Assembly (NCBI GenBank): GCA_003313425.1
Contig: NHZP01000081.1
Location: 1 to 64,000, forward strand
DNA: 64,000 nucleotides
Origin: Pseudopyrenochaeta lycopersici
Taxonomy: Eukaryota > Ascomycota > Dothideomycetes > Pleosporales > Pseudopyrenochaetaceae
Direction of reading: 5' to 3'
The notes beneath the pieces were generated by a model. It was not told where the DNA came from, made no database searches, and saw only the letters and a list, made by a program, of their open reading frames with translations. Below, piece after piece: positions 81-63,380 of this stretch (positions are counted from its first letter, which is position 1; every line of letters starts with the position of its first letter). The position numbers and the translations under genes were made by a program.

Positions 81-141
81 TGACAACTTTCTAGTGAAAG
101 GAATCATATATAGGCTGCGCCACACTAGAAAAGTTGTCAGA
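81..141. repeat. Joint hairpin (first copy in the window)
   Basis: Left arm CAACTTTCTAGTG is nearly invariant at all 41 joints. The right arm varies with the cassette that follows: CACTAGAAAGTTG in long form with an inner GGC..GCC mini-hairpin, or the short forms CACTCGAAAGTTG and CACAAGAAAGTTG. The loop contains AAAGGAATCATATATA. The cassette joint falls between GGAA and TCATATAT, as shown by where identity between repeated cassettes stops. In a circularised cassette both arms would come from one molecule, so this is the best candidate for a replication origin, nick site or recombination site. No TAATATTAC-like nonanucleotide is present in the loop. Confidence 0.85.
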
Positions 142-461
142 GGGGCCTGTGCGCGACCCGCACCGCCACCCATATTTGTCCTTCGCCAAATTTTTTTGTC
201 GAAACATCCTAGGGTTCGCACCCTTAACAACAACGCTCCCGCACCGAAAATCCTTTATTGTTATCGCTCCTCTACAAAACCGCACAACACGATTAGGTAG
301 TATTATAACTAACCAACAATTAAAAATAAAAATAGTTCCCACAATATCACATGGACAATATCGCATACACAATAAATATATAACGAAAAGTGCAGTACTA
401 CAATAACCAACGATTACACCCTAACACGCACATTCCGAGCTATAAGTAGAACACTCAAAAA

Positions 462-1263
462 CTACTCTATAACAACAAAACACCTTACATCAGAGCGATC
501 GCAGGGGCAACGCATCCAAGGGCGCGATCCGAGCTGGCGATCACCTACAGCATCTGATACACCTGCCCACCACGTTGGCAAAGGAGCAGGATTGAGCTCA
601 GGGAGTCGAACAAGCCTCCAGCCACATAAGTCCCACAGTTGCTGCTCAACACAGCGAGTCCCAGCACCTACACAAGGGCAGGGAACGGGGGACACAAGCC
701 ATGAGCAGATCTGCTGCACAGAACCCCAAGTGTCATGTCGAACATGTACCAACACCATAGGCGCAATCTCCGCGTAAAGCCACTCAACGGCAGAGGAAAC
801 CAAGGGCGCAACCAACACCTCGCACTCCTGCGGCCCGCGCATAAACTTCGCAACCAATGCAGCCCGTCGTCGCCGGGGCATCAACCCGCCTGGCACACTC
901 CGTAAAAATGATATACAATCATCACACAACGGCGGGAGCCTACCGCTCTCCTTTGTAAACCACCACTTTACACCACATTGCTGCGAAACCTCGCACGTGA
1001 CAGAAACGGCAGCGTCTTGAAACACTACCTTACCGTTAGCAAAACACAGGACCAAGCATGGCCTGTGTGCCACAAACGTAGCACACGTATGAGTCGAACC
1101 AACCTTGGATGTTCTCCACTAGAGATACGATCTCAGCCTCGCTCCCCGAGAAAGGAGCTACGCGACTCTCTTCAAGTGCGTGCACTGCCGCGCTGCACAG
1201 TATAACAGTCCCACTGAGCAAATCCTTTGCTAAACATGCTCCTAGACAACCGAAACGACTCCA
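462..1263 (-). pseudogene. WWVTKESG-family gene, type A copy 1, frameshifted exon 1 (cassette 1)
   Basis: Exon 2 is 462-1024 and intron 1025-1103 (79 nt, GTTGGT donor, GCTAAC branch site, GTAG end). Exon 1 ends at 1104. The exon 2 protein matches copies at 13114, 14694 and 17867 and shows WWFTKESGRLPP near its start and GVSDAVG near its end. Compared with those copies, this one has small length differences near 1198 and 1238; from the ATG at about 1248 the frame now closes early. The cassette lacks the outer half of the left module and no TATA box was found, so the true 5' end is unclear. Both the break and other indels may be consensus errors near a sequence end. Confidence 0.55.
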
Positions 1264-2044
1264 CCGTGAAAAATATCGCGTCCGCGCGAAATGGAAAGCC
1301 AACCTCGCAGTCCCTGAGGGCGTGCAAAAATAGCACGACACTTCCCGTTAAGAAGAGCGCGCCTCCGCTGCGGCTAAATATGACAAACCTTACAGGATTT
1401 GATCATGAAAAGAATTGGATAAAAAGGCGCAAAGAGAGTACTCTCCGAGATGTCGTGGTACCAGACAACTCCTCCTCCGTCATACAACTCGCTGATCGCT
1501 CGACCAACCCCTCACGTCCGTGCTCTGCTTTGCTTACTAATGGCTTTTGCCCCTAGTCTCCAAGGAGCCTAACCCTTCGTACTCCTCTCCAGTCATGGGC
1601 AAAGCTTAGGGTAAAGTTACATGGGTCAGGCAGCACAAGGCTGCCGACCACATTGACAACTTTCTAGTGAAAGGAATCATATATAGCACTCGAAAGTTGT
1701 CGGAGGGGCCCGTGCGCGCAAAATAGCGCCACAGCATCCCAACGTGACTCTCCCGAGCCACAGCCAACCTGACTCGGCGTGCCCTCCAGCCACAAGGAAA
1801 ATGGACTTAGGCATTTTTTTTGAGAGGATTGACATTCCGTCTAAAGGGTAAGGTCCCTAAATAACATAGCTCCGCACAACAACTTCCTTGTTACAATAAT
1901 GATAATACTATAATTAACGTCTCAGTAACTACGTGTGATAAAAATAAGGATTAATAAATCAACGTACTTTACAACACAGTAAACAACTAGTGCTACACGC
2001 CATACCCATATGTAAAATATAGAGGAACTTACTGCTAACCGTTT

Positions 2045-2837
2045 TTACCAACAACGACGGCAAGTCAGCCAGTCCTCTCCTGACGGTTGTACTATTCCTA
2101 CTGCATCGCTGAGTCCAGCAAACCAGTCAGACGTTCCAAACGGCCATACACCCGAAAATTCATCTAAGCGAGTAAACCCTTGATGAAACACCACGTGCAT
2201 ACACACAAGGCTCACATATCCAGTTGAGAGTACATGCGCAGTCCACCCGCGTATTAAAAAACCCTTCGTCTAACGAATACAACAATACAGACGTCATAAA
2301 AGCATCCGCAGTCTGCCCTTCAGGTGTTGTGATAAGAGGAAGAATGCGCTGCATCAACACATCTACTGTCTCTACCGAAAGCTCCGCCAAAACAACTAAG
2401 CTCCGCATTGCCACATACCAGAGCACGTCCACCTTGAGAACTAAGAGAGACTGGCCGGGTGGCCCCCTGCGCAACAAAATACTTATAGTCTTCCAGACAA
2501 AACTTGTGTCCTTGTGCTACACACTCTATAGGAAGGCGTCCGCTCTCCCTGGTAATCCAACAAGATTTTTACCTGACAAATCTATATGTACGGTAAGAGA
2601 CATACCACGCTCCACTAAAACTGTTACTCCGTTAGTTAGGCACTCCCCAACTCAATCTGTCTCTAGACAACAAGAAAGACACTCACCAGGCACGTGATTC
2701 CTCACCGCTTCATGTTCCACGGGTGTCTCTACAGACACAGCAGAAGAAGATCCTTCCTGTACCCTATCTATTACAGATGGGAAACTATTTGTAGCACTAG
2801 GACCCGCCATAGTGCCCTGTCCAGGCCGCGACACCAT
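2045..2837 (-). pseudogene. WWVTKESG-family gene with three frameshifts (cassette 2)
   Basis: Exon 1 is 2687-2837 (ATG at 2837, about 50 aa), intron 2621-2686 (66 nt, GTGAGT donor, ACTAAC branch site, AACAG end), exon 2 2045-2620 with TAA at 2045. Family blocks are all present (ILVERG, SLLVLKVD, ELSVETVDV, RVDCACTLNWICEPC, GLSDAVG) but fall into different frames. One-base changes are inferred near 2565 (loss), 2455 (gain) and 2180 (gain). TATA box TATAAGA at about 2917-2923. Either a decayed gene or, given the same pattern in its neighbours only, a stretch of poor consensus. Confidence 0.7.
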
Positions 2838-3662
2838 CGCAGTATACTAGAACAAAAGAAGCCTCAAGGAACTGAGGAAGTGCAACACCTCCGTGAACGG
2901 GGAAGGGGCTCCCCCCTCTTATATGTTGATATCCATGCTGTCTCTACCAAGAGAACCTAGTCCCCTACGAGGCAAGCGTCTGCCCCTTCCATGTAGTTAT
3001 ATCCATAAACCAATCAGACAACTGATTGAACGCGTTGTGGGGCCAAGAGTGTCTCCCACGTGCCCACTGTGATCATCTGATCTGCACAGTCCGTGCTCCT
3101 GTGGGCTTACAGGGGTCTTTGCCTCTAAACTAATTCTAGTTTAAACACTTCGTTACTCCCTCCAGTCGTAGGCAAAGCTTAGAGTAAAGCCGTCGTGGTC
3201 CCGAGCGCAAGGCTCTCGACCACTTGACAACTTTCTAGTGAAAGGAATCATATATAGGCAAAACGCCACACTAGAAAGTTGAGTCGGGGTCTGTGCGCAC
3301 CCCGCACCGCCACACGAAATTGGACATAGCCAATTTTTCGTGAGATTGATGTTCCATCCTAAGGGCGTCCACACCCTTCATGACGACAGCTCCGCACAAC
3401 AACTTCTTCGTTCTTTTTTCTTGGCTTCTGTACAGAACCTACATACCATAATTAGTGAATAGTAGAAAACAATAAAAATCTACTAAAAAAAAAATGTGCC
3501 TACTATCGTACCTAACAAATATCCACAAACATGTGATACAGTACCACAATCAGCTCAATGCAAAACAACGTACACAGTCCTATCAAAATTAGATACTGAT
3601 ACTATTACTCTACTGTACTCCATACCTATGCTTACAGGTTAACAAAACTTAAGACTTTCGTC

Positions 3663-4467
3663 TCAAAACGCTGGACAATCGCAACTCAGCCAGTTCTCTC
3701 CGGATGATTGTACTCTACCAACAGCGTCACTGATCCCAGCAAACCACACAGACTTTCCAAACGGCCATACACCTTGGAATCCATCCAGCTGAAGAAACCT
3801 CGGAACCCTCGTCGACGTACATAGTACTGATACGCAAGGCTCACAGATCCCCTCTAGCGTGCATCCGCAATCCACGGAAGTACCAAAGTACCCAACGTCT
3901 AGCAAGTACAGCAACATCTCCATGCCTACAGCATCTACAACTTGCCGATCTGCCAGTGTAATAAGCGGCAAGACCCGCCATGCAAGTACATCGAATGTCT
4001 CTAACCGAGAGCCGAGCAAAAGTAACATGGCTCCGCACCACCCCATCCTGATGGAGCGCCTCCACCTTGAGGACCAGGAGCGACTGCCGGGTCCCACCCT
4101 CTGCACACAGTTCCTTATAGTCTTCCAGACATGATATATGTCGTTGCTCCGCGCACTGCCGAGGAGGCTGCCCGCTCTCTTGGTTACCCACCAGGAACAC
4201 CTCCCCGACGCATTCATGCTGAGCGTAAGAGACACACCGCGCTCCACCAAAGCTGTCCGTCTATCAGTTGGGGAGCCCAACTTCTTCTGTGTTTAGAAAA
4301 CAAAGACACTGACTGTGCACGTGATCCCTCACAGTCTGATGTTCCATCAGCGTCTCTACAGACACTACGGAAGAACTCCCTTCCTCTAACGCTTCTAAAA
4401 GAGATAAGAAGCTTATAGTAGCATTGGCTCCCGCCATAGCACTGCCCTGCCCAGGCTGCGACCCCAT
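3663..4467 (-). CDS. WWVTKESG-family protein with an internally frameshifted block (cassette 3)
   Basis: Exon 1 is 4314-4467 and exon 2 3663-4252; the 61-nt intron has a GTCAGT donor and GGACAG end. The spliced frame is open for 247 aa. However, between roughly 4180 and 4003 the family sequence (ESGQPP, CLEDYKELCAEGGT, SLLVLKVE) is in another frame, entered by a one-base loss and left by a one-base gain, so about 60 residues are unlike the family. The C-terminal blocks CGCTLEGICEPC and WFAGISDAVG are intact. TATATAGG promoter at about 4535-4542. The open frame may be accidental, or the indels may be sequencing errors. Confidence 0.6.
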
Positions 4468-5309
4468 CGCACTGTAGTAGAAAACAACTACATAATTGAC
4501 AACACTCCGTGTGTTTGGGAGGAAACCCCTTCTCCTATATACATATCTGACTTGTGCACCGCCAAGAGCAACCTAGTCCCTAGGGAGCGAGAAAACGCAT
4601 ACTCCCTGTGTCTACAGCCATAGACCAATTAGATCAAAGATCTTGTGAGGCACAGCAATCGTCAGATGACTCACGCTCCACGTGATGCCGTGCTTACTAG
4701 TGCTTATGCCTACACTCTAAAGAGTTTAACACTCCGTTGCGATCTCCAATCGCAGGCAAAGCTTACAGGTAAAGTGTCGAGGGTCTCCAGCGCAAGGCTG
4801 GTGACACACTTGACAACTTTCTAGTGAAAGGAATCATATATAGGCTTTTCGCCACACTAGAAAGTTGAGGGAGGGTCTGTGCGCGAAATCCGCGCCACAC
4901 CCCCAGCGCGTGCTCTCTCGAGCAACCGTGACTCAGCATCGCCTCCAGCCCACACACAATCGGACATAGCCAAAAAAATTTGCGATTTTTTTCTTGGACT
5001 TACCGTTTTTTTGTTTTTGGTTGTTCCACATCTCAATCTACTGACTCTGTTTACACACCCCGCTCCCTGAGCTCCTACAGCCGCAACATACTGCAACACA
5101 AATATCATGTGTGCTACAACAACTATTCCTAGTTCCCTCTCTACAGACACGAGAGAAAATCATCATCTTTACTGCTAATTCTTAGCAACAACCTATACTC
5201 GCTTCACGTATACAGAGTACAAAACCTGTCACTCACAGCCCAACGTACAGTATACAACATACACACTTCGTGCAAAATAATTGTCCTACATACGAACAAT
5301 CCCTTCCAT

Positions 5310-5995
5310 CTAAGTCTCCAGCGCCGCCTGATCAGACAAACAACGAGTAGGTCTCAAGACACATTCGCATGTTATATCCATGACACCAAACCCCTCTAAT
5401 AGTACCACTAATACGCTAAACCTGGAACCTTCGACGACTTTATAGACGTTCGGTAGCACACTCTGTACCAGAAAATCAAACGCTGCGTCCGTCAACGGCA
5501 CACACATACTAATCTCCCTCATCCCTAACCCAGTCCGTCCACGCCCGTGGCCTGCATACGTGATGACAAGGTGCGACCCCTTCGCACAGGGTCGGCCCTT
5601 ACTAACAACCTCAAAGTGCCTATAACGTTGCAAAAACTCTGGCGAAATCTCTTTCTCGTCTTCGTCGGATACACCGCGGCCAGGAACCTGTTGATCCTTT
5701 ACAAGGTTCCACTTGACAGTACCAGAAGGCTCCGCCTCGCACCAGACTGATGTGCCTTGCTTCACAAACTCTGTCCCAGAGAACAAGACCAAATTAGTTG
5801 GGGATCTCCCAACTTATATAGAGAGATAAGAGAGCACTCACCGTGCAACTGCGCCTTCAACGTATACACCTCCTCGCTATCCAGCTTCAACGCAGTCCCT
5901 GGGTCTATCTTCATAGACCAATCAGATAAGAAATCTGAATCCGACTTAGGCGTGCTACCCTTTGTCCAGGACCATGATCCGGCTTGCATCTCCAT
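5310..5995 (-). CDS. Short divergent member of the two-exon family (cassette 4)
   Basis: Exon 1 is 5842-5995 and exon 2 5310-5770, giving 204 aa. The intron (71 nt) has a GTGAGT donor, ACTAAT branch site and GACAG end, and splices in phase 1 just before EFVKQGTSV, the position of LVERGVSL in relatives. The WWVTKESG block is reduced to VKWNLVKDQ and the usual C-terminal WF.GISDAVG block is absent; a CxC pair (ITCECVLRPTRC) remains. A TATA box lies at about 6108-6114. Function unknown. Confidence 0.6.
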
Positions 5996-6810
5996 CGCAA
6001 TCAACTACCCGTTGAAATTAAGGAAAGGATATGAAAAATACTACAGAGAAACTGTAGATTTAGATACGCTCACTACCCGTGAGAAGAGATGGAGGGCACT
6101 CGCCTCTCTTATACATCTCTGTCTTCTCAGACCCTTGCCAATGCCAAGCTAAACTATTCCATACTTGGCAGGGTTCTGCCCACTCCATGCTGTCTATGTT
6201 CATAGACCAATCAGACTAAAGATCTGAAAAAGAGAGTGGCAACCCAGCGTCATCTGACTCACACGGTCCGTGCTGCGTGTTGCTTACAGGGGGCAGCGCC
6301 TCTAGCCTACAAGTAGTCTAACACTTCGTTACTCGCTCCACTCGCAGGCTCTGCTTAATTGTAAAGTGGCAAGGGTAACCAGCGCAAGGCTGGTGACCAC
6401 TTGACAACTTTCTAGTGAAAGGAATCATATATAGGCTGCGCCTCACTAGAAAAGTTGAGTCCGGGTCTGTGCGCGAAATCCGCGCCACACCCATGTGACT
6501 CTGCATGGCCCTCCAGCCACAACGAAAATGGACTTACGCATTTTTCGAGAGGTTTGATGTTCCATCCTGAGGGCTCCCACCCTTACTAACCAAGCTCCGC
6601 AACAACGAGAAGTCATTGTTTTAATGGCCCTACCATTACTAAATTAGTACCTACGGGTACAAAAAACAATTGTATACCTACCAACAAAAACTTACTTACT
6701 ATGCTATACAAACAACATATATTAATATACTTTGCAGTCCCAATAATATCCTGAAAAACATACAATAAACATACACTTCATTCCTAGTTTATACTATCCC
6801 CACTACGTTA

Positions 6811-7624
6811 CTATACTCCGTGTTCGTAATAGTAATAACTATCACCGTAACACCTACTCATAAGACACGATAACCAATCTAAACCATACGGTTGCACCTC
6901 CCCTACCGCGTCACTGATCCCACCAAACCAGTTAGAATTAGTTACTGGCCGTACACCAGAAAACCTCGGCCACTTAACAAACCTGGATGAAAAACCATGT
7001 ACATACGCACAAGGCTCACATATAGTATGTCGTGAACATCCGCAGTCCACCCGCGTACTACACCACCCGTTCTCCAACAACTCGAACAATCTATTGACAT
7101 AGAAAGCCTCCACAATCTGCCCATCCGGCCGTATGAGAGAAGGTACGATGCGATACAAGAGAACATCCAATGTCTCTAGAGAGAGCTCCGCAAATACAAC
7201 AATCGTATTCCTCTCGTCGTAATATATGGTTTCCACCTTTACTACAAGAACCGCCTGCCGCATACTACGCTGCACAGCGTGCTGCTGGTAATTATTGAGA
7301 CACTCCGTGTGCTGTTCCTCTACGCACCGCCTAGGGGGTTGCCCACTCTCTTTGGTCACCCACCAAGATTGTCTCCCCGACAATGGCACATGGAAGGTAA
7401 GAGATACACCATACTCTACAAGCACTATTACTCCGTCAGTTGGGACCCCCCCCACTGCAGTGAGAATGAAAAGAAACAGCAACAAACCTACCCGGCACGT
7501 AACTCCGCATCCATTGAATATTCTCAGCTGTCCCTGTGAACGGGTCCCCCCTTCTACCCAAAACAAGCCTGTCTATTGATGGCACGCTACTCGCTAGGGT
7601 GCGCTGCCCGGTATGCGATGCCAT
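6811..7624 (-). CDS. WWVTKESG-family protein (cassette 5)
   Basis: Exon 1 is 7492-7624 (MASHTGQR..., 44 aa) and exon 2 6811-7424; total 248 aa. The 67-nt intron starts GTAGGT and ends AACTGACGGAGTAATAG, with the branch-like ACTGAC 16 nt from the end. Exon 2 shows VLVEYGVSLTF, WWVTKESGQPP, a Cys cluster (VDCGCSRHTICEPC) and WFGGISDAVG. A C run at 7446-7454 lies inside the intron. TATATATAAG promoter at about 7704-7713. Confidence 0.72.
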
Positions 7625-8009
7625 CGCAATGTAAAAACAAAAGGAAAGCACGAGGTTCCTTAGAATGGTGCAACACGTCCGTGAACACAGCTCCTCAGCT
7701 GTCTTATATATACATTCCTGCCCTGCGCGATGCCAAGACCACCTAGTCCCTAGTGAGCATAGGTATGCCCATTCCATGCGTCTATGGAGATAGACCAATC
7801 AAATCATAGATTTAACAGATGTGGCAATCCAACATCACCTGATCCGCACTGTCCGTGCTTTGTATTGCTTACAGGGGCTCTTGCCTCTAGTCTCCAAGGA
7901 GCCTAACGCTTCGCTACTCCCTCCAGTCGTAGGCAACGCATACGTGTAAAGTGTCTAGGATCAGAAGCGCAAGGCTCCTGACCACTTGACAACTTTCTAG
8001 TGAAAGGAA

Positions 8010-8160
8010 TCATATATAGGCGGAACGCCACACTAGAAAGTTGTCGTGGCTGGGGAGTGACCTCCCCGCACACCAAGGAATGCCTGAACGGCATGTACCT
8101 CCAGAACCGCGCTAAACTGCGCACAGGGCAATTGACAACTTCTTTTTGCGCCACACTCTG
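8010..8160. repeat. Alternative right module with second TTGACAACTT (cassette 6)
   Basis: Instead of the usual GTGCGC stem, this module has GGGGAG-TGA-CCTCCCC and ATGCC-TGAAC-GGCAT hairpins. It also carries a second copy of the joint left-arm start, TTGACAACTT, at about 8132. Related versions begin cassettes 20, 30 and 38 (30151, 45987, 58617). Confidence 0.75.
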
Positions 8161-8376
8161 TCGTACTTAGCCAAAATTTCTTTTGAGGGAAAACACCTTA
8201 CAAAATTTCTTTTGAGGGAAAACACCTTACAAAAATTCCATGGCAGCACAATGTGGTACATCCAGACACTCCGTACAACACAGAACACAGTGACTACAGA
8301 ACAACAATCTATTCGTCTCCTAAAACGCAAGTCCCTATAGTACATTAACAACCGTAAATCAAGAATACAGATGTAT

Positions 8377-9131
8377 CTAGTCTGCTCCACCTTCCACAGC
8401 CTCCGCCGTTTGTAAATGCGCTGCAACAACCTTACGGTCCACGCGCAGGGTGTGACAGGGACCACAGTCACACAAATCATCCTTACTGTGCCGGGAACCC
8501 CGTTTGGCTTTGCCTTTTCCAAGCCACATATGTCGCAAAGAACACCTTGCACCAGGCGACAAACTGGAAATCGTACCATCGCCGTGTGAGGTAGGTTCGA
8601 CCACACGAACCATACACACTTCCACCTGCATACCGTCCTTGAAGTGAACATAACACAGCTCGTTTTGCGGACCCACGCATATTTGATGCTTATACTGGCT
8701 GCACCTACCAGTACGCCCACTCTTCGTGAACACCGTGCACTACATCGCCATGTTAGCTTTCCTAACCATACAGTCGAAAAGTTTGCCCCCACTGCTCTGT
8801 CACTAGAGGCAAAAGACATCACTACCTTCTCCAAGTCGCAAAGAAACGGCTCTTTGCCGACATACTTCATCATATCACTGTGCTCCTGCAAATGTCTCTC
8901 CCGCAGCTCACGCCTAGCGGGGCCAGCCTTCCGCGGCAACACAGCCGTGTTGTTGTGCTTGCCGACATGCCTACGACAGGCAACACCTCTACGTTTGCCA
9001 TCCAACGGTTTGCGGAACAAGTCGCTCCACGCCAACACATTACCATGACGACTAGAGGTGCCCACATCGCATCCACTATACATTGCATCCGCATCGTCCC
9101 GCATGTCCTTCTTGGAGGAGCGCTGATTCAT
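8377..9131 (-). CDS. Unrecognised basic, Cys/His-rich protein (cassette 6)
   Basis: Proposed exons are 8826-9131 (ATG at 9131, 102 aa) and 8377-8739, joined across an 86-nt intron with GTAGTG donor, GCTAAC branch site and TGTAG end, giving 222 aa. The branch site and the open frame after it support the join; the donor is weaker, and a nearer GTATGG (35-nt intron) is possible. The protein is Lys/Arg-rich at the N-terminus and contains GRCSQYKHQICVGP and DDLCDCGPCHTLR, possibly metal-binding. It does not match the common family. TATA at about 9244-9252. A short upstream ATG in another frame exists near 9172. Confidence 0.5.
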
Positions 9132-9945
9132 GCTACGCAAAAAGACAGTACCTACCAGTGCAACTCCATGCACACGCGGCAAGACAATCCGCGAGAAGGA
9201 AAAAGGAGAATAAGAAAGAGAGGGACGGGGAGCCCCCTCCCCTCTTATTATATGCCGCACCTCCATGTCGCCATGTGACTTTTGCCCACTTTCCTTGTGT
9301 AGTGCCAAGAGCACCTAGTCCCTAGTTGGCAGTGTGGTGCCCATTCCATGCTGTCTATGTTCATAGACCAATCAGATAGATAATCTGAGAAGTGTGGCAA
9401 CACAATGATCCGATGATCATCACGCACAGTCCGTGCGTTGTGTTACTTACAAGGGGCAGCGCCTCTAAACTAATTCTAGTTTAACCCTTCGGTATTCGTT
9501 CCACTCACAGGCTCTGCTTAGAGGTAAAGCCGTCGTGGTCCCGAGCGCAAGGCTCTCGACCACTTGACAACTTTCTAGTGAAAGGAATCATATATAGGCA
9601 AAACGCCACACTAGAAAGTTGAGGCCTGGCCTGTGCGCGAAGTCCGCGCCACACCCAGGTGACCCAACGTGACTTCCAGCCACAGTAAAATTGGACTTAC
9701 GCATTTTTTTTTGGAAACTCCGTGATCTTCTCAACTCACATTGAGACCCGACAATGAGAGACACGCTGTCCCCAACGTAAACTGCCCTGCCACTCAACAC
9801 ACTCCCGTGAACACTTTACTACCGTCCCATACACTATATTTTAACAACAACGTTCCTTTATTTTTTTTTTAAGAAAATAATAACATACTAACAATAAATG
9901 TTATAAATGTTGTATTGTGTTTGAAATAACGCAAACGCATACTTA

Positions 9946-14330: not shown

Positions 14331-14336
14331 CCCTAA
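14331..14336. repeat. Telomere-type repeat, one unit, at a cassette joint
   Basis: One CCCTAA lies between GGAA (end of cassette 9) and TCATATAT (start of cassette 10). Most joints read GGAATCATATAT with nothing between. The minus strand reads TTAGGG. Confidence 0.8.
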
Positions 14337-17503: not shown

Positions 17504-17509
17504 CCCTAA
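17504..17509. repeat. Telomere-type repeat, one unit, at a cassette joint
   Basis: One CCCTAA lies between the end of the RAD52 cassette 11 and the start of cassette 12. The RAD52 cassette is therefore bounded by telomere-type repeats on both sides. Confidence 0.8.
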
Positions 17510-48215: not shown

Positions 48216-48218
48216 CAA

Positions 48219-53453: not shown

Positions 53454-54099
53454 CCTGCACACGTAACGGATGTAAATAAAAGGCACTGCCAGCTACGTCC
53501 TACGTAGTGGAGGAACTCCCTCCAAACCACTCCATGCCAACAGATTCTCTGTTGCTCTTATATATACCTCTCTGTCTTGCGCGCCGCCAAGAGAACCTAG
53601 TCCCTAGTGCGCAACAGAGTGCCTAGTCCCTGTGTCTATGTCCATACACCAATCAAAGAATCGATTGAGAGAGTAGTGGGGGCAAGGGTGCCTCCCACGT
53701 GTAACCCAGCGTCAAACGACCCGCACCGTCCGTGCTCTGGCTTACTTACAGGGGCTTTTGCCCTAAACTACGAGTAGTTTACCGCTTCGCTACTCGCTCC
53801 ACTCGTGGCAACGCATACGATGTAAAGTGGCAAGGGTAACCAGCGCAAGGCTGGTGACCACTTGACAACTTTCTAGTGAAAGGAATCATATATAGCACTC
53901 GAAAGTTGTCGGAGGGGGCCCGTGCCCCAACATGACCCATGTCTGCGCTCCCCGCGCCACAGCTAACGTGACCCTGCGTGACTGTCAGCCACAGGGAAAA
54001 TGGACTTAGCCATTTTTTTTGAAGGTTCGATGTTCCATCTGAAGGGCTCCCACACCCTTACCGACTGACCTCCGGTAATCCAAATTCTTCATTGTCCCC

Positions 54100-54490
54100 A
54101 CAACGACGTAAACCCTATATAACATAATTAATATATATATAAATATACTACTTTTGTTTTACAAAATAAAACAAGTATGAAATAACATACCTTCCTATTA
54201 TTTTCCAATAATCTCCATACTACAACTCCCCTTGTATATCTACACTCCGCATCCTCGACGTACCTACGTAAAATCAGATAACATATCTACCCATCTATGA
54301 TTACCAAGACACTCCATAGTACGCGTACACACTACTAACCTAATTTACCAATAATGCACTTACCTTACAACTAAACAAGACCAAAGGTAAGAGAACATTA
54401 CGATAATTGAGTTTCGCAAACTCTACAACAATTGAATGACAGAGACAGCTCCCTAGCCTCTACGTTACACCATCAACATCTCTGGAAAAC
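54100..54490. other. AT-rich spacer (cassette 35)
   Basis: No supported gene. Contains a run of alternating TA near 54130-54145. Confidence 0.4.
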
Positions 54491-54494
54491 AACG

Positions 54495-55079
54495 CTACGC
54501 GCCACCGCCAACTCTTACATGGCGAGGACGTACAGATATTTTTTTGTTTTTTCCTGCACGCAACCTGCGCAGGCCCTGAACAGCACCAGCAGTGCATACA
54601 AAGCTTCCTCCAAGTCGATCTCCACGACCATCACAGAAGCGCTGGCTACTCCGTACAAGACTTTCATCAACAACGTCATGAGAGGTTCCCTCTACGTCCG
54701 CCAGCGTTGGAAACCGCCCTAAATCACATACAGCCTCCAGCAGAGGACACGTCCGCGACAAAAAACACCCATCGCTCTCTTGGGTGCTAGGTGTATCCAC
54801 ATCGATTACATCAAAGCATAGAAGTTCCACATCTCCGAGCCAATCTAGGACGATATCCATGTTTATAGGGCTACCCGCCACGATCCACACTGTGAAAAGA
54901 CATGAAGTGGGATACACTTCCTGCAAACAACCAAAAAGCAGAGTACCATCTGCACAGGACGTCGCCAACTCCGCCTGCAACTCCATCGTCAATCGCTGCA
55001 CCCAGGATGACTTCATGATGCTGCTACCACAGACCAGCTGCACTTTAAAGCAGCGACACCTTGCTAATGATTCCATCAT
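54495..55079 (-). CDS. Unrecognised 194-aa protein (cassette 35)
   Basis: Open frame from tandem ATGs (55079, 55076) to TAG at 54495, about 70 nt downstream of a TATAAA box (55151-55157). The middle is hydrophobic (LFGCLQEVYPTSCLFTVWIV; MDIVLDWLGDVELLCFDVIDVD) and the C-terminus basic. It lacks the family blocks. A cryptic intron near the C-terminus is possible because that part has a less protein-like composition. Confidence 0.45.
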   Translation of the reverse strand: MMESLARCRCFKVQLVCGSSIMKSSWVQRLTMELQAELATSCADGTLLFGCLQEVYPTSCLFTVWIVAGSPINMDIVLDWLGDVELLCFDVIDVDTPSTQESDGCFLSRTCPLLEAVCDLGRFPTLADVEGTSHDVVDESLVRSSQRFCDGRGDRLGGSFVCTAGAVQGLRRLRAGKNKKISVRPRHVRVGGGA

Positions 55080-55806
55080 CACCTACTAAAAGAGAAGAAT
55101 AAAAAAATGTTCATAGAGACTGAACATTCACACTCCGTGCAGAAATGCTGTTTATATGTTAATGTCTATGCTGTCTTTGCCAAGACACACTAGTCCCTAG
55201 TTGGCACGAGTGTGCCCCTTCCATGAATCTATGTCCATAGACCAATCAAATGATTGATTGAAATAAAATGTGGCAACCCAGCGTCACCTGACTCACACGG
55301 TCCGTGCTGCGTGTTGCTTACAGGGGGCAGCGCCTCTAAACTAATTCTAGTTTAACCCTTCGGTACTCCCTCCAGTCGTAGGCTCTGCTTACAGGTAAAG
55401 TGGCAAGGGTAACCAGCACGAGGCTGGTGACCACTTGACAACTTTCTAGTGAAAGGAATCATATATAGGCAAAACGCCACACTAGAAAGTTGAGTCGGGG
55501 CCCGTGCCCCCCCATGTGCCACATCTCCTGCTGACTCGGCGTGCCCTCCAGCCACACGGAAAATGGACTTACGCATTTTTTTTTCTTTGGAGATGGTGTT
55601 CCATCCTAAGGATGTGGACGCCCTTCATAACTGAACGACACGCAATACACAACGACAATAATGTACACATTACCATAACACAGTTAAATAAAATAACTCA
55701 TACCTACACTCTGTTACTATAACCTACTATTACATTATACACTGTATAAACGCACCTTGTACTCTTTACGTCTGTACAGCCAAAGAAATTCCATACCAAA
55801 ACGCCA

Positions 55807-56556
55807 TCACATCGTCCTAACAACCCAGACAGGTTTATCAGGGTCCACCTGCGCATCAAAGCTTCGAAGCCGACCGTCGCTACTCCCAGTGCAATCAGGG
55901 CATACTTCATGCATACAACATACACAGAAGGCGCCTCCACGAAAACCGCCACCAACGAGAACATCAACTGCGCGCTCCCACTGCTTACACTCCAAGCAGC
56001 CTCTTACTAAAGGCTCAAAGGCTACGCCCCATTTAGCGCGCCCCAAAATATTGGTCACCACAGCATCCAACGACCGTTGACTAAGCTTAGCATGAAAGAG
56101 AGTCTCCCTGACAGCGCATCCACACCAGGGCCCTCCAAGGACCTGCACAACAATGTGAGACGAGGGACTACGTTCTCCAAAGACGCCTTCGCCTTCAGCA
56201 GTCTCCAAAGCCCGCCACCTGTTCTTCCCCACAGGCCGTAGGGGCAACCGAGTCAACCACCACGTAGCACGGTTTGCGGACACAACGCAGACCAACGACA
56301 CATCCTGTTCCACCAAAGCTGTGTGTCTATCAGTTGGGCTCCCCAACTTCTTCCGTGTCTAGAAAGGATAATAAAAGAGACACTTACCAGGCACGTGATC
56401 TCTCACGAACCGTACTTCGTCAGCGTCCTCCAGCCTGACCACTGCGTCTGGCATAGGCCACGTATTCAGCCAAACAGAAAAGCTTCTCAGCAGTCGCGCC
56501 GCATCCTCGCATGACGTCCTTCGTTCCGAGACCCATTCAGACAACGTCCTCTTCAT
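55807..56556 (-). CDS. Divergent two-exon family protein (cassette 36)
   Basis: Exon 1 56388-56556 (MKRTLSEWVS..., ending VRDHVP) and exon 2 55807-56318; 226 aa. The intron (69 nt) has a consensus GTAAGT donor, ACTGAT branch-like site and CACACAG end. Exon 2: ALVEQDVSLVCVV, ATWWLTRLPL, LSQRSLDAVVTNIL, CVCCMHEVCPDC; it ends before any ISDAVG block. The TATA box (about 56730) is 170 nt upstream of the chosen ATG, leaving room for an unrecognised 5' exon. Confidence 0.62.
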
Positions 56557-57520
56557 AGCTCCGCAATGTTAACAAGAAAAGTGCCTATAGAGACACTCTC
56601 ACGGCTACGATCCACATCAAACCACTTCCGTGTCGCGCGCAAAATGCGTCCCACCAGGAAACAGCATACGCTGCAGTAAGAGAATCCCCCAGGGGAATAG
56701 AGCCCATGCGCGGGAGAGGGGGCTCCCCTCTTATACATCTCTGTCTTGCGCAATGCCAAGACCACCTAGTCCCTAGCAGGCAATGTGGTGCCCCGTCCCT
56801 GCGTCTACATTCATAGACCAATCAGAATAAAATTCCGAAAAAGAGTGGGCAAACCAAGGTCAAACGACCCGCACCGTCCGTGCTCTGGCTTACTTACAGG
56901 GGCTTATGCCTCTAGTCTTATTCAAGACTAACCCTTCGGTACTCGTTCCACTCGTTGGCAACGCATACGTGTAAAGTGTCGAGGGTCTCCAGCGCAAGGC
57001 TGGTGACCACTTGACAACTTTCTAGTGAAAGGAATCATATATAGGCTGCGCCACACTAGAAAAGTTGAGGACGGGTCTGTGCGCGTCAAATCCGCGCCAC
57101 AGCTAACGTGACTCAGCGTGTCTTCCAGCCACACATAATTGGACTTAGCCAATTTTTGAGACACAAAACTATTGTTCCTCCAAACGTAGTGTACCCACTA
57201 ACAATATAGCCTACGCTACCATAAGATAATAGCTTCCGCCATTACCAATACATCAATTCCTAAAACGATACAAAAATATAGTACCTTAATACAAATATGA
57301 CTGCATGACCAGTAGCATACAAAAAATTGCATACCGGGCTTGAAAAAGCATACAACGCATACTACCGTAACACATTACGCATAACATGACAAAGCAATAA
57401 ACCTCTGCGAGCACGCCATAACAAAGGATAAAGCAGAGCTTGAACAACATCAAAGTACTGATATGGTCAGTACTACCCTATAGAATATTGTTAGCAACCG
57501 CCAAAATACAACTCCGTTTG

Positions 57521-58114
57521 CTACACACCTGATGTATGTACAGCAGACTCGTCTTGCCTAACGACCAAAGGATCGCGAACGAGCCCCACAAGACCACGCC
57601 ACCGCTCGATGCGCCTCTGCCACATTGCAACTGAGGCTAACGCTTCACGATGCCACTGTACGTTCGATCCACGAGTGCCTGGCCGGCCACAAAGTCCTGC
57701 AATTATCCCCGAAGACTCCGCAACACGGAAGGGACTCTCATGCAGCCAAACCACTGTCCGCACTGACACAGGGCCAAAGTCCACCAAGGCATACACACAG
57801 CGTAACCACCTCCGGTCATGCAGTTCCACACGCAGACTCGCATAAAACTCAGCCTCCGCAGGTAAAACATTGGACAACTCCTGTTCCACATTGTTGACGC
57901 CCCACGGGCCTGTCCAAGGCGCATAGTGGACGAGAAAGAACCTATCACGGGGCATAAAGACACCCTCAATGCCCCATAACTCGAACCTGGACCGAAAACG
58001 ACGCGGTTCATGCACACTCTGTAAACCCGATCCGGGTGGCATGGAAACAGGTTGACCTGATGTGCCTCCAACACGACGGCTCCTACAAGAACGCTGCCTA
58101 CGCGAGCGGGACAT
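57521..58114 (-). CDS. Degenerate CRESS Rep-like protein, copy 2 (cassette 37)
   Basis: Identical to the cassette 16 gene over the whole cassette. The retained open frame in a protein without catalytic residues suggests either very recent copying or a non-enzymatic role such as binding the joint hairpin. Confidence 0.5.
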   Translation of the reverse strand: MSRSRRQRSCRSRRVGGTSGQPVSMPPGSGLQSVHEPRRFRSRFELWGIEGVFMPRDRFFLVHYAPWTGPWGVNNVEQELSNVLPAEAEFYASLRVELHDRRWLRCVYALVDFGPVSVRTVVWLHESPFRVAESSGIIAGLCGRPGTRGSNVQWHREALASVAMWQRRIERWRGLVGLVRDPLVVRQDESAVHTSGV

Positions 58115-58939
58115 AGGGACGAGCTACCCGCAAGCCTCCACTATAAACCTGATATGCGATCTTCGCAACCCCACTGACCGTGGTGGAGTTGGTAAGGATA
58201 GAACCAACGATCCCGCAGCCTGCTCTTTTTCATTGGAAAAGACGTCGAATCCCCTGAAGCACTTCCGTGCCAAACAGTCCTGCGTGGTGCCCAGCCCCGC
58301 AGACAAGATAAAAGATCAACTACGTTAAGAATGCCTTCGCAGGCAACGAAAACCAGCCGGTACCTCACCTCCGTTCACAGTAACCCCGCATCCACGTGAC
58401 GAGAGCACGGCAGCGCCCTTGCCTGCAATGACTCAACCATGCTCCACAAGGACCGTATCCACGTCATGCATTGCATAAATAGTGCATTGCCTCTAAACTA
58501 ATTCTAGTTTAACACTTCGTTGTTCCCTCCAGTCACAGGCAAAGCTTACAGTAAAGTTACATGGGTCAGGCAGCACAAGGCTGCCGACCACATTGACAAC
58601 TTTCTAGTGAAAGGAATCATATATAGGCTGCGCCTCACTAGAAATGTTGACTGTGGCTGGAGTGTGACCTCCCGCCCACCCACTTCTGGGTGAGCACCAT
58701 GTACCCCAAAACGACGCTAAATCGCGCACAGGGCAATTGACAACTTTTTTTTGCGCCACACTGTGTCGGACTTAGCCAAATTTATTCGAAAATTTTATGA
58801 ACCGCATAACGTACCAATGTCGCCGCAGTACATATATTACCAAAGAAATATAAGACTACCAAAATACTTGCCTTGTCTACGTCAAAAACAGCCCGCACTT
58901 CACCATCACAGCTATACGCTGAAGGTGTCGCATCATACA

Positions 58940-59763
58940 TTAACACCATAACGCACCATGGACATACCTGCACGATAACCAATCTACCCGCGATGGAAAC
59001 ACCAACCCAACAGCATCGCTAAATCCATTAAACCATCTATGCGATGGGAGCGGAAATGCACCGCCAAATACATCAAGACGTGCAAACCCACGCTGCCACC
59101 GACCTAGCAACAGACACGAAGTGCAACACTTTCCAACTGTGCATCCACAAAGGGCACCACTAGAGAAATGCCCATTCTCTACAGCGCGGAACACCGCCTC
59201 CACTTCATCCGCCCTAGCAGCATCAGCTGCAATCATAGTAACGAGTGGCAGTACCTGCCGCACAAACACATTGAGCATATCGACAGACAGCTCCGCAAAC
59301 GCAACGAAGCTCCGCAGTTGATCGTATTCTCCCACAACATCGACCTTCCAGACGAGACGCGCCCGAGACGCACCATCCAAATCGCCAGAACCCTCATAGC
59401 GATCTAAGCAGCTACAGTCTTTAAGCCTACCACAAGACATGGGAGGCTGCCCGCTCTCCTTGGTGAACCACCAGACCCGTTCCCCGTTCGCCTGCACGTG
59501 ACACGTAAGAGAAATATCGTGTTCTACCAACACTACATCAACATCAGTTACTCTGAGTTTCAACCAACTCCACGGAGAAACACAACAGGGTACCCACTGT
59601 GAGAGTATTCTTCAATAATCCCTAACTCGTCTTCAGTCCCTGCAAACGGGTCCCCCTTGCAACCCTCTTCGAGGGCGTCCATAACAAAAGACGTATACTC
59701 CGCTACACTTGGCCGGTCCACAGGCCTCCTAACGATATAAAACTCTCCGGGATGCAACTCCAT
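58940..59763 (-). CDS. WWVTKESG-family protein, type F copy 2 (cassette 38)
   Basis: Identical to cassette 30 at an offset of 12,630; exon 1 59598-59763, exon 2 58940-59532, TATA at about 59851-59857. Confidence 0.7.
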
Positions 59764-60359
59764 CGCCCTGAACAACGCGTTCAAAAGAGAAAAGAGACGA
59801 AACTACACATAATAGAGAACACTCCGTGAGCGGGGAGAGAGCCTTCCCCTCTTATATGTCGATGTCCATGCTGTCTCTGCCAAGAGCACCTAGTCCCTAG
59901 CAGGCAATGTGGTGCCCCGTCCCTGCGTCTACGTTCATAGACCAATCAGATAAGAACTCTGATAGAGTGTGGGGCCAAGGGTGTCTCCCACGTGCAACCC
60001 AGCGTCATCTGACTCACACGGTCCGTGCTGCGTGTTGCTTACAGGGGGCAGCGCCTCTAGCCTACAAGTAGTCTAACCCTTCGGTACTCGTTCCACTCGC
60101 GGGCCCTGCTTAGGGTAAAGCCGTCGTGGTCCCGAGCGCAAGGCTCTCGACCACTTGACAACTTTCTAGTGAAAGGAATCATATATAGGCTGCGCCACAC
60201 TAGAAAAGTTGAGTCGTGGCTGAAAAATTTTTCAGCACCCCGGTAAAACGTGACCTCCAGCCACAACAAAAATGAACTTAGCCATTTTTTCGAGAGGTCT
60301 GATGTTCCATCTTCCATCCCAAGGGCTCCCACCCTTAACAATGAAGCTCCGCACTTCCT

Positions 60360-60890
60360 AACGTACTATGCCCCACCACAAGCAACGCACGTCTAACGCA
60401 TAGTACCTCTTACCTAGTTCCTATATAACACAAATTAGTAAAAACACCCATGATAGAGACAAAACAAATAGCCTCGCAATTCTAAAAAAAAAAAAAGAAC
60501 CTACGACATAGATACCATCAACGTATTGTAAAAAAGCAAGTAGGGTAGGAAATACCCTAAACACAGAACACAAGGCTACTACCTAGCCTATCAGTAGGGA
60601 AATAAAACATTTACAGAAACAAACACTCACGTAATAGACGCTGCCCTAACATTATAGCTACGCATTATGAGAAAAACAGTACTACGCACATACTGCATCC
60701 TCAAATAGGGAAGAGTAAAGATAACTCTATACGTTACAGGCTACACGACATATGCTTCCCGCAGTACAACCACATATCGTAGAGAACTACGAAGACAGAA
60801 ACGTCAGTAACATGATACACAAGCCTTCTTAACTTGTCGCAATAGACAAGGCGGTATACTTACCAAAAAGCCCACACCTTCGGCGCAGCA
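60360..60890. other. AT-rich spacer (cassette 39)
   Basis: No supported gene between the right module and the coding part; the same stretch recurs at 61961-62491 in cassette 40. Confidence 0.4.
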
Positions 60891-60897
60891 ACCATCC

Positions 60898-61465
60898 CTA
60901 CCCACTGCGTCCACAGTGCGTCCGCTTCCGCAAGTAACTCTCCGAGGCCGACCGATCACCAACCCAGCACATCCGTGACAGGCAAGTGCAACAGAGTAAA
61001 GCACTCTGTAGGACGCTCACGAAAATCACCCCAAGCGCCTCCAACGCAATCGAGCTACACTCGACCGATATCGCGGCCTTCCCGCTCTCCAGCACCTTCA
61101 TCCAGTGTTGTGACTGGGCCTGCGCCTTCCAAACCATTGTTCGCTCCCGCCGAAGAACGACCATCGTAAAGTATTCCGCTCTGCATCCAGGTCTGCCAAC
61201 CGGGAGACACGCTCCACGCACCACTCGTGCTTTGCATAAACACCTCTTGGGGCCGGTTCCACCGTGCGTCCATGTCCAATATGTGCGGCGCACAAGGAAT
61301 ACGATATGCGAGGCTCCGCCGTACAATGAGAAAACGTCCCTTTTCGTTGCAATTCTTGCTCAATGCGTCCGCGATGGAAGAGTTAAAGAAGTCTTTGCGA
61401 TAACCCCGCAACAGACAGAAGCCGCGAGCCTCCGCCAGCCCCGCGGAAAAACGGCGGAAAAACAC
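60898..61465 (-). CDS. Probable divergent family gene, copy 1, structure unresolved (cassette 39)
   Basis: Two overlapping minus-strand frames look coding. The upstream one (about 61465-61330) has an F-box-like tail, GFCLLRGYRKDFFNSSIADAL. The downstream one (to 60898) contains YWTWTHGG, MVVLRRERTM and SVECSSIALEALGVIFVSVL, in the order of the family's WWVTKESG, LLVLKV and LSVEALD blocks. A splice or frameshift must join them near 61320, but no GTRAGT/CTAAC pair is convincing, and neither a start ATG nor a TATA box was found. The left module is truncated. Confidence 0.4.
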
Positions 61466-62498
61466 CGGTGCCCCGCCTTGATGTCATCCGACCAATAAGC
61501 ATACCAGTAGATACCTAACCCACGTCCGTGACCCGCTACTAGCTCCCAACGCTCCCGCTAACAAATCAGACCAAAGATCTGAGAGAGAGTGGGCAACCCT
61601 GCGGTCATCTGACTCACACGGTCCGTGCTGCATGTTGCTTACCGGGGCTTTTGCCATTAAACTACAAGTAGTTTGACGCGTCCGCTGTTCCCTCCAGTCA
61701 CAGGCAAAGCTTACAGTAAAGCCGTCGTGGTCCCGAGCGCAAGGCTCTCGACCACTTGACAACTTTCTAGTGAAAGGAATCATATATAGGCTGCGCCACA
61801 CTAGAAAAGTTGAGTCGTGGCTGAAAAATTTTTCAGCACCCCGGTAAAACGTGACCTCCAGCCACAACAAAAATGAACTTAGCCATTTTTTCGAGAGGTC
61901 TGATGTTCCATCTTCCATCCCAAGGGCTCCCACCCTTAACAATGAAGCTCCGCACTTCCTAACGTACTATGCCCCACCACAAGCAACGCACGTCTAACGC
62001 ATAGTACCTCTTACCTAGTTCCTATATAACACAAATTAGTAAAAACACCCATGATAGAGACAAAACAAATAGCCTCGCAATTCTAAAAAAAAAAAAAGAA
62101 CCTACGACATAGATACCATCAACGTATTGTAAAAAAGCAAGTAGGGTAGGAAATACCCTAAACACAGAACACAAGGCTACTACCTAGCCTATCAGTAGGG
62201 AAATAAAACATTTACAGAAACAAACACTCACGTAATAGACGCTGCCCTAACATTATAGCTACGCATTATGAGAAAAACAGTACTACGCACATACTGCATC
62301 CTCAAATAGGGAAGAGTAAAGATAACTCTATACGTTACAGGCTACACGACATATGCTTCCCGCAGTACAACCACATATCGTAGAGAACTACGAAGACAGA
62401 AACGTCAGTAACATGATACACAAGCCTTCTTAACTTGTCGCAATAGACAAGGCGGTATACTTACCAAAAAGCCCACACCTTCGGCGCAGCAACCATCC

Positions 62499-63066
62499 CT
62501 ACCCACTGCGTCCACAGTGCGTCCGCTTCCGCAAGTAACTCTCCGAGGCCGACCGATCACCAACCCAGCACATCCGTGACAGGCAAGTGCAACAGAGTAA
62601 AGCACTCTGTAGGACGCTCACGAAAATCACCCCAAGCGCCTCCAACGCAATCGAGCTACACTCGACCGATATCGCGGCCTTCCCGCTCTCCAGCACCTTC
62701 ATCCAGTGTTGTGACTGGGCCTGCGCCTTCCAAACCATTGTTCGCTCCCGCCGAAGAACGACCATCGTAAAGTATTCCGCTCTGCATCCAGGTCTGCCAA
62801 CCGGGAGACACGCTCCACGCACCACTCGTGCTTTGCATAAACACCTCTTGGGGCCGGTTCCACCGTGCGTCCATGTCCAATATGTGCGGCGCACAAGGAA
62901 TACGATATGCGAGGCTCCGCCGTACAATGAGAAAACGTCCCTTTTCGTTGCAATTCTTGCTCAATGCGTCCGCGATGGAAGAGTTAAAGAAGTCTTTGCG
63001 ATAACCCCGCAACAGACAGAAGCCGCGAGCCTCCGCCAGCCCCGCGGAAAAACGGCGGAAAAACAC
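62499..63066 (-). CDS. Probable divergent family gene, copy 2, structure unresolved (cassette 40)
   Basis: Same sequence as in cassette 39, offset by 1,601. These are the only two identical cassettes directly next to each other without a telomere-type repeat between them. Confidence 0.4.
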
Positions 63067-63380
63067 CGGTGCCCCGCCTTGATGTCATCCGACCAATAAG
63101 CATACCAGTAGATACCTAACCCACGTCCGTGACCCGCTACTAGCTCCCAACGCTCCCGCTAACAAATCAGACCAAAGATCTGAGAGAGAGTGGGCAACCC
63201 TGCGGTCATCTGACTCACACGGTCCGTGCTGCATGTTGCTTACCGGGGCTTTTGCCATTAAACTACAAGTAGTTTGACGCGTCCGCTGTTCCCTCCAGTC
63301 ACAGGCAAAGCTTACAGTAAAGCCGTCGTGGTCCCGAGCGCAAGGCTCTCGACCACTTGACAACTTTCTAGTGAAAGGAA

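Follow-up and report, generated by a model that had tools for sequence, protein, structure and literature searches.

The 64,000-bp stretch of DNA from the filamentous fungus Pseudopyrenochaeta lycopersici analysed here (the window) probably lies within an array of segments integrated at telomeres; these would belong to a multipartite CRESS-DNA mycovirus related to genomoviruses, or to a virus-derived mobile element. There is strong support for viewing the units as the segments of a virus-like system of the multipartite circular ssDNA kind. Judged from its sequence, a segment is about 1.58 kb long; it usually holds a single gene, together with a common region and a hairpin that resembles an origin and has the loop TATATATGATT^CCTTT. 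Segment types include a Rep, a short HUH-only Rep, a Rad52, a capsid-like protein and a large orphan family; about 80 are estimated in all.

Array structure and unit size

The window contains 41 joints and 40 head-to-tail units with a joint-to-joint spacing of 1,562-1,607 bp, which confirms the 40 near-equal units described in an earlier, sequence-only reading. The units share a single orientation, with their genes on the minus strand. The array overruns both ends of the interval given in that reading (104..63380).

1..64000, minus strand: array of 1.58-kb units; 40 complete units, joints 101-104 to 63378-63380; runs on outside the window
3228..3281, minus strand: example joint, by DNA fold; stem CAACTTTCTAGTG / CACTAGAAAGTTG, loop with TATATATGATT^CCTTT (presumed nick site)

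By nucleotide sequence, the 40 complete units fall into 31 types (one present four times, six twice and 24 once); the set used for a recount of window types included an additional unit straddling the window end. No known RNA genes or tRNAs were found in the window. The unit at the contig end (U01) matches its sister copies except for a few indels of one or two bases, perhaps introduced in assembly.

There are 894 unit starts across the genome; the chromosome ends of the fungus are packed with hundreds of 1.58-kb one-gene units. The 122 units read, on 17 contigs, have a mean length of 1,580.1 bp (SD 11.7, range 1,536-1,607); the claim of constant length, which wide variation elsewhere would contradict, thus holds beyond the window. 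These units represent 54 types; about 82 types are estimated, of which about 28 are unseen. Among the 54 types, unit length has an SD of 9.3 bp, compared with 255 nt for the longest ATG-ORF. The best explanation of so constant a unit length is that a capsid or replication would limit the size of a circle, because coding length ranges widely while total length does not.

Common region and strand skew

Folding of four joint variants as DNA (z -2.8 to -6.4) indicates that the joint can form a hairpin; the earlier reading names a shared hairpin region as a feature of nanoviruses and their satellites. It has a stem of about 13 bp and a loop holding GATT^CC, the presumed nick site; by sequence, this corresponds to the origin hairpin with a nick site in its loop that is typical of CRESS-DNA viruses. 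A stretch of roughly 30 bases around the joint is near-invariant, and the common region contains covarying stems. GC skew is +0.15 to +0.25 in 54 of 54 types versus -0.07 to +0.09 in 12 host bins.

Replication protein

A Rep-like gene had been placed in the window. None was recognised there, and a Walker A and HUH motif scan of the first types read found no Rep; the CRESS-DNA Rep, with HUH, YCxK, Walker A/B and motif C, is encoded by array units outside the window. At L048:543-1718 the motifs are VTWSQ, HYH, YCFK, GPSRLGKT, LVLNDIDF and VTCN, which we take to be the respective named Rep motifs. The protein combines HUH endonuclease motifs with an SF3 helicase, as is characteristic of Cressdnaviricota.

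Fourteen Rep homologues were found (down to E=1e-135); Pyrenophora and Colletotrichum have relatives that are 40-57% identical. Three of the 14 are named to organism, and all three are fungal. The homologue in Pyrenophora tritici-repentis is a 391-aa Rep on a 1,600-bp contig. Among 15 aligned Reps, Gemini_AL1_M matches ten (best 6e-10) and Gemini_AL1 seven; the query Rep itself falls under the Pfam cut-offs. These Pfam matches of geminivirus type place the Rep nearest to geminivirus and genomovirus Reps, and its ATPase part aligns with CRESS Reps over its length. PF02407, the nanovirus-type Rep, is absent from the Pfam matches of the Rep and has no match in the genome, where controls were equally silent. 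The earlier comparison with multipartite circular ssDNA virus segments is therefore upheld by the Rep unit, the uniform size, the common regions with their hairpin and the strand skew; it has to be amended in that the Rep is geminivirus- or genomovirus-like, not nanovirus-like.

Nine full-length Rep frames are identical, and two more copies near contig starts have interrupted frames. A second Rep, which is short and HUH-only, occurs at three places (46% identity). No relative was confirmed in IMG/VR (queries: capsid, Rad52, Rep, a Rep relative and a four-Rep alignment) or in a phage collection.

Gene content

Genes of the window that represent the main types are as follows.

9949..10791, minus strand: U07, major orphan family, single open frame (family comparison)
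16224..17069, minus strand: U11, Rad52/Rad22 single-strand-annealing protein, 282 aa (PF04098, E=7e-28); 13 places in the genome
19506..20135, minus strand: U13 (= U33), orphan protein, outside the family (sequence)
22969..23382, minus strand: U15, orphan protein with PPSY motif (sequence)
24317..24907, minus strand: U16 (= U37, 57524-58114), Arg-rich N-terminus, outside the family (sequence)
30844..31242, minus strand: U20, F-box-like N-terminal frame (PF12937 7.5e-4, below cut-off); family domain in another frame (30507-31004)
31961..33019, minus strand: U21, capsid-like protein, 353 aa, pI 9.5, 19 R/K in the first 60 residues; 8 identical units genome-wide
33717..34496, minus strand: U22, major orphan family (WW.TKESG ... 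WF.GISDAVG ... WLSC; family motifs)
41522..42502, minus strand: U27, N-terminal extension F-box-like by eye, plus family domain; no Pfam match
43048..44106, minus strand: U28, identical copy of the capsid-like unit (sequence identity)

The 'at least ten unrelated gene types' proposed from sequence have to be qualified: 21 of the 31 window types (26 of the 40 units) belong to one divergent family, and ten types lie outside it. Of the 54 types sampled overall, 36 carry this fast-evolving orphan family, whose alignment found no relative among 8,000 candidates scored. The F-box-like genes of the earlier reading are weakly supported in U20, through its PF12937 match under the cut-off. A RAD52 gene (by eye) and RIP-like composition were also seen in the genome and, along with the Rep relatives, indicate the kind of host.

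The 353-aa protein is plausibly a capsid protein, given its basic N-terminus and suitable size. To that extent the earlier 'capsid-like' label is retained; no sequence homologue of the protein was found. Two partial matches to the capsid gene are located at contig ends. An unlikely alternative is a transposon or telomeric plasmid community of viral descent that has no capsid, in which Rep moves units inside one fungal lineage and the capsid-like gene serves otherwise. For spread inside the genome, the many copies and the intact Rep frames might be enough; IMG/VR yielded no confirmed relative, and fungal ssDNA-virus-like transposons are on record (PMC3198968). However, unless packaging set a limit, one would not expect so tight a length with such variable genes; the basic 353-aa protein is also near the 327-aa BcssDV1 capsid protein in size, and Rep relatives occur in other fungal genera.

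Telomere junctions

The arrays are embedded in TTAGGG telomeres; units enter at TT^AGGG in one orientation, and in host-anchored arrays this orientation is constant relative to the telomere. The junction reads ...GGGTT^[CCTTTC...unit...TATATATGATT]^AGGG.... At the eight inner edges read, the unit is preceded by AGGGTT in seven and by AGGGGTT in one (C4). Of nine telomere-capped outer ends read, five have a GATT|AGG join and four are cut inside a unit; breakage and telomere healing therefore also act. Some joints retain (AGGGTT)n, and repeats between units are whole multiples of AGGGTT.

14329..14334, minus strand: one telomere hexamer (AGGGTT, sense orientation) between two units (repeat pattern)
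15909..15926, minus strand: three telomere hexamers between two units (repeat pattern, found by further pattern counts too)
17502..17507, minus strand: one telomere hexamer between two units (repeat pattern)

By pattern counts, about 890 of the 894 unit starts are preceded by a unit end or by telomere repeats. The units have no telomeric repeats of their own, save the shared TT. A TTTAGGG telomere repeat gave no match, and the contig ends show TTAGGG. The telomere location of the arrays is absent from the sequence-only reading. We know of no precedent for multipartite-ssDNA-virus-like units lying precisely within telomere repeats; the matches listed in the open PMC literature include no report of CRESS segments in telomeres.

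TRAS, MoTeR and FoTeR also insert into telomere repeats (PMC2868851, PMC12857005, PMC7367193), and in TTAGGG the T-A junction, the same position as here, is where the TRAS1 endonuclease cuts (PMC2868851). FoTeRs moreover occupy fungal telomeres (PMC12857005). Telomere-targeted retrotransposition of this kind, by an endonuclease and target-primed reverse transcription, is nevertheless very improbable here. Those elements encode a reverse transcriptase and do not form a multipartite set; FoTeR copies vary in length and are often truncated, and truncated copies outnumber full ones (PMC12857005). Both ends of the units are precise. No reverse transcriptase Pfam match was found among 106 ORFs scanned (from part of the 54 types; Rep was scanned as well), and there is no 5' truncation gradient in the 122 units of 1,536-1,607 bp. 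The two marks of a telomeric non-LTR retrotransposon are thus lacking in what was scanned, and this process was rejected on unit length, absence of truncation and absence of a reverse transcriptase in those ORFs.

Copy identity and neighbour order

All eight capsid units read are identical, as are all ten Rad52 units, and their flanks differ. Since identical copies have different neighbours, units were inserted singly and recently. Copies within a type are mostly base-identical, and many types have no common core DNA; a deviating copy is present in 5 of 27 multi-copy types. Assembly polishing could raise copy-to-copy identity. Neighbour pairs are near random, with 4 excess repeats versus 2.2 +/- 1.4 in shuffles (88 pairs).

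The subtelomeric position, and the protein domain common to two thirds of types, would also fit an ordinary family of host genes near the telomeres that unequal exchange and gene conversion had amplified and homogenised. Such a family is scarcely credible as an explanation: unrelated genes (Rep, Rad52, capsid-like) occupy the same unit frame, and copies are identical within types, yet many types share no core DNA. The near-random neighbours, the identical copies with different flanks and the telomere hexamers between units led to its rejection as the main process.

Proposed origin and integration

The virus-like segments would integrate site-specifically into telomeres, probably by means of Rep. 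Segments would replicate as ssDNA circles, with Rep nicking GATT^CC. Rep, or a related strand transfer, would join the nicked ends of the circle into the G-strand at TT^AGGG, perhaps within the single-stranded G-overhang. The GATT end of the integrated unit would rebuild the preferred site; the next unit would then either follow it at once, as at most joints, or land farther out, at a distance of one to five repeats. A telomere-cutting nuclease or recombination could yield similar junctions.

Entry of the circular segments by homologous or single-strand-annealing recombination, through the viral Rad52 or ALT-like telomere recombination instead of Rep strand transfer, is quite improbable. The Rad52 unit is present at 13 places, and common-region homology could make direct joints. 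However, copies with different neighbours are fully identical, which would leave exchanges only the roughly 30 near-invariant joint bases to act in, and the inner junction GGGTT^CCTTTC has no homology beyond TT.

We give an even chance to a broader proposal: a virus-derived system of about 80 segments would attach site-specifically to the G-strand of the telomere, Rep nicking TT^AGGG like its own origin. Chromosome ends would thereby become a refillable proviral bank, which may lengthen the chromosome. To our knowledge, about 80 segments is far beyond any described multipartite virus genome, by roughly ten times.

Comparison with known systems

In Genomoviridae, a single ambisense genome of about 2 kb holds both Rep and CP, and multisegment members have three or four segments; the array has one main gene per 1.58-kb unit, not Rep and CP on one genome. 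Helitrons and IS200/IS605-type HUH elements show strand-specific, target-specific and oriented insertion without flipping, tandem joints and a circular ssDNA intermediate. The units appear to work in a similar way; they differ in their TT^AGGG target, and no Pif1-type helicase or Y1 transposase was seen. Helitrons encode a Rep-Pif1 helicase protein and insert at A^T; here, insertion is at TT^AGGG and the ATPase part is CRESS-Rep-like.

Integron arrays consist of one-gene cassettes with hairpin attachment sites in a single orientation. The units resemble them in being one-gene, one-orientation cassettes with hairpins and differ in constant unit size and telomere target; the Pfam scan of the 106 ORFs gave no match to a tyrosine integrase.

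HHV-6 and Marek's disease virus are described as DNA viruses that integrate in TTAGGG telomeres. Both are large dsDNA viruses; HHV-6 has telomeric repeats of its own, while the units have none beyond TT. Marek's disease virus also carries its own telomeric repeats.

The closest known system is BcssDV1, a four-segment mycovirus with 1.7-kb segments. The available part of PMC10731770 describes circular segments of 1,669-1,707 nt with one gene each (Rep of 321/380 aa, CP of 327 aa and two unknowns), a long and a short common region, an origin hairpin nicked at TACTCTT^CA or ^AG, a Gemini_AL1-type Rep and a fungal host. Segments of near-constant size with one gene each, common regions, a hairpin, a Gemini-type Rep and a fungal host are points of likeness to the array. 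BcssDV1 differs in having four segments instead of about 80 and in being a free virus; that part of the paper mentions no telomeric or other integration and no Rad52. Fusarium graminearum gemytripvirus 1 is likewise a multipartite fungal CRESS virus with common regions; it has three segments and is not described there as integrated (PMC10731770).

Significance

If true, these proposals would bring together multipartite ssDNA viruses, HUH-driven transposition and telomere biology. Rep could then serve as a telomere-specific integrase, and a multipartite genome could pass 50 segments when kept in the host; telomere colonisers would not be limited to retrotransposons and herpesviruses. The array makes it testable how multipartite viruses hold all their segments together, and it may offer a natural enzyme-target pair for TTAGGG repeats.

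Unit size and copy number

A joint search of the window, which tolerated up to nine substitutions and was also run with the exact motif, finds 41 joints (unit-unit borders) and 40 intervals of 1,562-1,607 bp in a single orientation; the unit genes lie on the - strand. The 40 units represent 31 DNA-level types: 24 single, six in duplicate and one in four copies. Within the window, copies of one type are identical save for the trailing telomere hexamer and a few 1-2-base indels in the contig-end unit. The 164-kb contig, of which the window forms the initial 64 kb, belongs to an assembly of 62.7 Mb and 188 contigs. Genome-wide, 894 matches to the unit start CCTTTCACTAGAAAG were counted (367 + 527; control pattern, 0); at 1.58 kb each they amount to ~1.4 Mb, which is ~2% of the assembly, and at least 25 contigs carry units.

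The sequence-only reading had ascribed the near-constant spacing to a size limit on the segment. Lengths were compared for 122 complete and distinct units from 17 contigs, read in the window and at fetched loci; the sample is non-random, as some loci were chosen for the capsid-like or Rad52 unit. It contains 54 types, with a mean length of 1,580.1 bp (SD 11.7, range 1,536-1,607). Across types, the SD is 9.3 bp for unit length against 255 nt for the longest ATG reading frame (183-1,194 nt, without intron modelling), so that the unit as a whole, rather than its gene, is under constraint. The Chao1 estimate is ~82 types from this sample and 84 if only the window with its straddling unit is used. 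Every copy is identical in 22 of the 27 multi-copy types; four others have one deviating copy, and the fifth consists of two copies that differ.

Independent insertion of units

The complete capsid-like unit (U21/U28 in the window) occurs at eight places in the genome and is identical across 1,607 bp in all of them; left and right neighbours differ, one copy ends in telomere and one begins at an inner edge. The Rad52 unit (U11) occurs at 13 places. The ten copies fetched are identical across 1,575 bp and differ in their left flanks; on the right, two have one neighbour type behind telomere repeats. Ordered neighbour pairs show four excess repeats among 88 adjacent pairs versus 2.2 +/- 1.4 after shuffling (attained in 362 of 2,000 shuffles), and same-type neighbours account for 5/88. 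Block duplication and unequal exchange therefore fail to explain the arrays, given identical copies with differing flanks and near-shuffle pair counts. Identity between copies might partly be an effect of repeat polishing in assembly.

AT-rich host repeats are RIP-like (C83:60001-70000: TpA/ApT 2.16, (CpA+TpG)/(ApC+GpT) 0.41). The window is far less so (1.11 and 1.04) despite its many identical unit copies, so the arrays are either young or have escaped RIP. The RIP-like host repeats, the host RAD52 gene and the fungal origin of the named Rep relatives indicate a filamentous ascomycete as host.

Telomere junctions

TTAGGG repeats are found at contig ends. At all eight inner array edges read (C4, C18, C23 left and right, C50, C54, C65 and C5), telomere-type repeats stand immediately ahead of the unit start CCTTTCAC. 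These repeats finish AGGGTT in seven and AGGGGTT in C4; C5 has one hexamer only. Among nine telomere-capped outer ends read, the unit end meets the repeats at TATATATGATT|AGG in five (C18, C50, C77, C99 and C118; the initial repeat in C50 is one G short). In the other four, all contig starts (C5, C54, C102 and C124), the repeats begin mid-unit, which looks like chromosome breakage and telomere healing within arrays. The G-rich telomere strand is the gene-sense strand in the eight host-anchored arrays listed (C4, C5, C10, C18, C23 twice, C50 and C54).

Telomere sequence also occurs inside the arrays. AGGGTT hexamers lie at three of the 41 window joints (one, three and one) and, with one host boundary set aside, 1-5 hexamers at 9/60 unit-unit joints of ten other array loci. 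Across the genome, TATATGATT and CCTTTCACTAG are 0-30 nt apart at 870 joints; among 100 of these listed, three are non-direct, with inserts of whole hexamers. By comparison of the two pattern lists, 20 further unit starts follow telomere repeats with no unit end just upstream (six read, the others placed by coordinates only); 19 are at apparent array inner edges and one is within the C65 array. Unit ends or telomere repeats thus precede ~890 of the 894 starts, although the patterns behind the two counts differ slightly. Three of the remaining four were read: those in C4 and C5 are telomere-preceded, and the third, in C60, is a decayed relic behind degenerate telomere-like repeats. This lone relic, near C60:240699 (within C60:239500-242800), opens with CCTTTCACTAGAAAG; it may be an ancient insertion and, if so, would point to an association of long standing.

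Origin-like hairpin and strand bias

The joint folds into a hairpin whose loop contains TATATATGATT^CCTTT; DNA folding z-scores for four loop variants are -2.8, -6.4, -4.9 and -4.7. The loop is conserved, with a rare natural exception at window joint 47546, which has CTTATATGATT in place of TATATATGATT. The 22 bases past the joint and ~11 ahead of it are near-invariant across types, and hairpin stems come after them. One such stem covaries: 137/159 positions are paired (53/54 types), where shuffling the partners gives 85 on average and 104 at most; this control leaves in the relatedness of types. Sense-strand GC skew is +0.15 to +0.25 in 54/54 types versus -0.07 to +0.09 in 12 host bins. This fits DNA that is single-stranded part of the time, with one polarity; other causes are possible.

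Rep genes and a proposed integration mechanism

The genome has nine identical full-length Rep frames; two extra copies near contig starts (C99 and C166) are interrupted. A second Rep is also present:

L055:8842-9519 (C92:44965), C119:20485 and C131:25421: shorter Rep, HUH part only, 46% identity to the full Rep

Alone, the full Rep falls under Pfam cut-offs (Gemini_AL1_M 8.7e-4, REP_ORF2-G2P 1.5e-3). Among 15 aligned Rep sequences, ten match AL1_M (best 6e-10) and seven match Gemini_AL1. A PDB sequence search gives weak matches only, of which the top two (E 0.15 and 0.19) are Reps. A search of 5.8 billion proteins yielded 14 relatives. Organisms are named for those from Pyrenophora tritici-repentis (E=1.7e-116; 391 aa, encoded on a 1,600-bp contig), Pyrenophora seminiperda and Colletotrichum sojae.

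The circle joint, GATT^CC, and the telomeric target, GGTT^AG, both fit the pattern NNTT^. A cut at both sites with exchange of partners would yield exactly GGGTT^CCTTTC and GATT^AGGG. Such cut-and-exchange on single-stranded DNA is an HUH enzyme activity, and Rad52 may help strand annealing. The GATT^AGGG closing an inserted unit is closer to the element's presumed nick site than plain telomere is, which would explain the predominance of direct joints. The BcssDV1 nick site is given as TACTCTT^CA or ^AG (PMC10731770). The TRAS1 endonuclease cleaves the same T-A junction (PMC2868851), so the cut position alone is no proof of Rep. The identity of the units as a multipartite, CRESS-derived, telomere-integrated element is rated clearly above the assignment of Rep as the enzyme.

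Other unit genes

U11 encodes Rad52 (PF04098, 7e-28), with 42% and 46% identity over two stretches to a host RAD52 gene on C12, which is of fungal type by eye. The U21/U28 protein has 353 aa, a pI of 9.5 and 19 Arg/Lys in its initial 60 residues; a homologue search gave none. Near contig ends, short matches to its initial 29 residues at C65:291085-291171 and C89:100206-100292 run into a stop, perhaps a second capsid-like type severed by the contig end.

One orphan family, marked by W, C and P at conserved positions, covers 36/54 types; an alignment search found no relative among the candidates scored. Other types may include unrecognised members because introns were not modelled. The U17/U19 type (window:25410-26989 and 28571-30150; six sample copies) has no 90-aa open frame on the sense strand, where family remnants (E=3e-18) are all that is left; this type is amplified despite lacking a clear protein. 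An F-box-like stretch is present in U20, and one of 106 ORFs matches Fer2 weakly (2.6e-4). By eye, the Arg-rich starts of three non-family proteins are alike (L009:1073-1804, window:19506-20135 and window:24317-24907), possibly one additional family. In a type outside the window (L018:1118-1582 and C61_202896), the protein ends in a single long hydrophobic segment, membrane-anchor-like by eye.

Relation to known elements

The units resemble BcssDV1 in segment size and Rep type, in having one gene per segment, two common regions and an origin hairpin, and in their fungal host. BcssDV1 differs in being a free virus of four segments. A literature search of open PMC papers found no report of CRESS segments in telomeres among the entries listed. 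Each single part is of a known kind; to our knowledge, neither their combination nor the segment number has been described.
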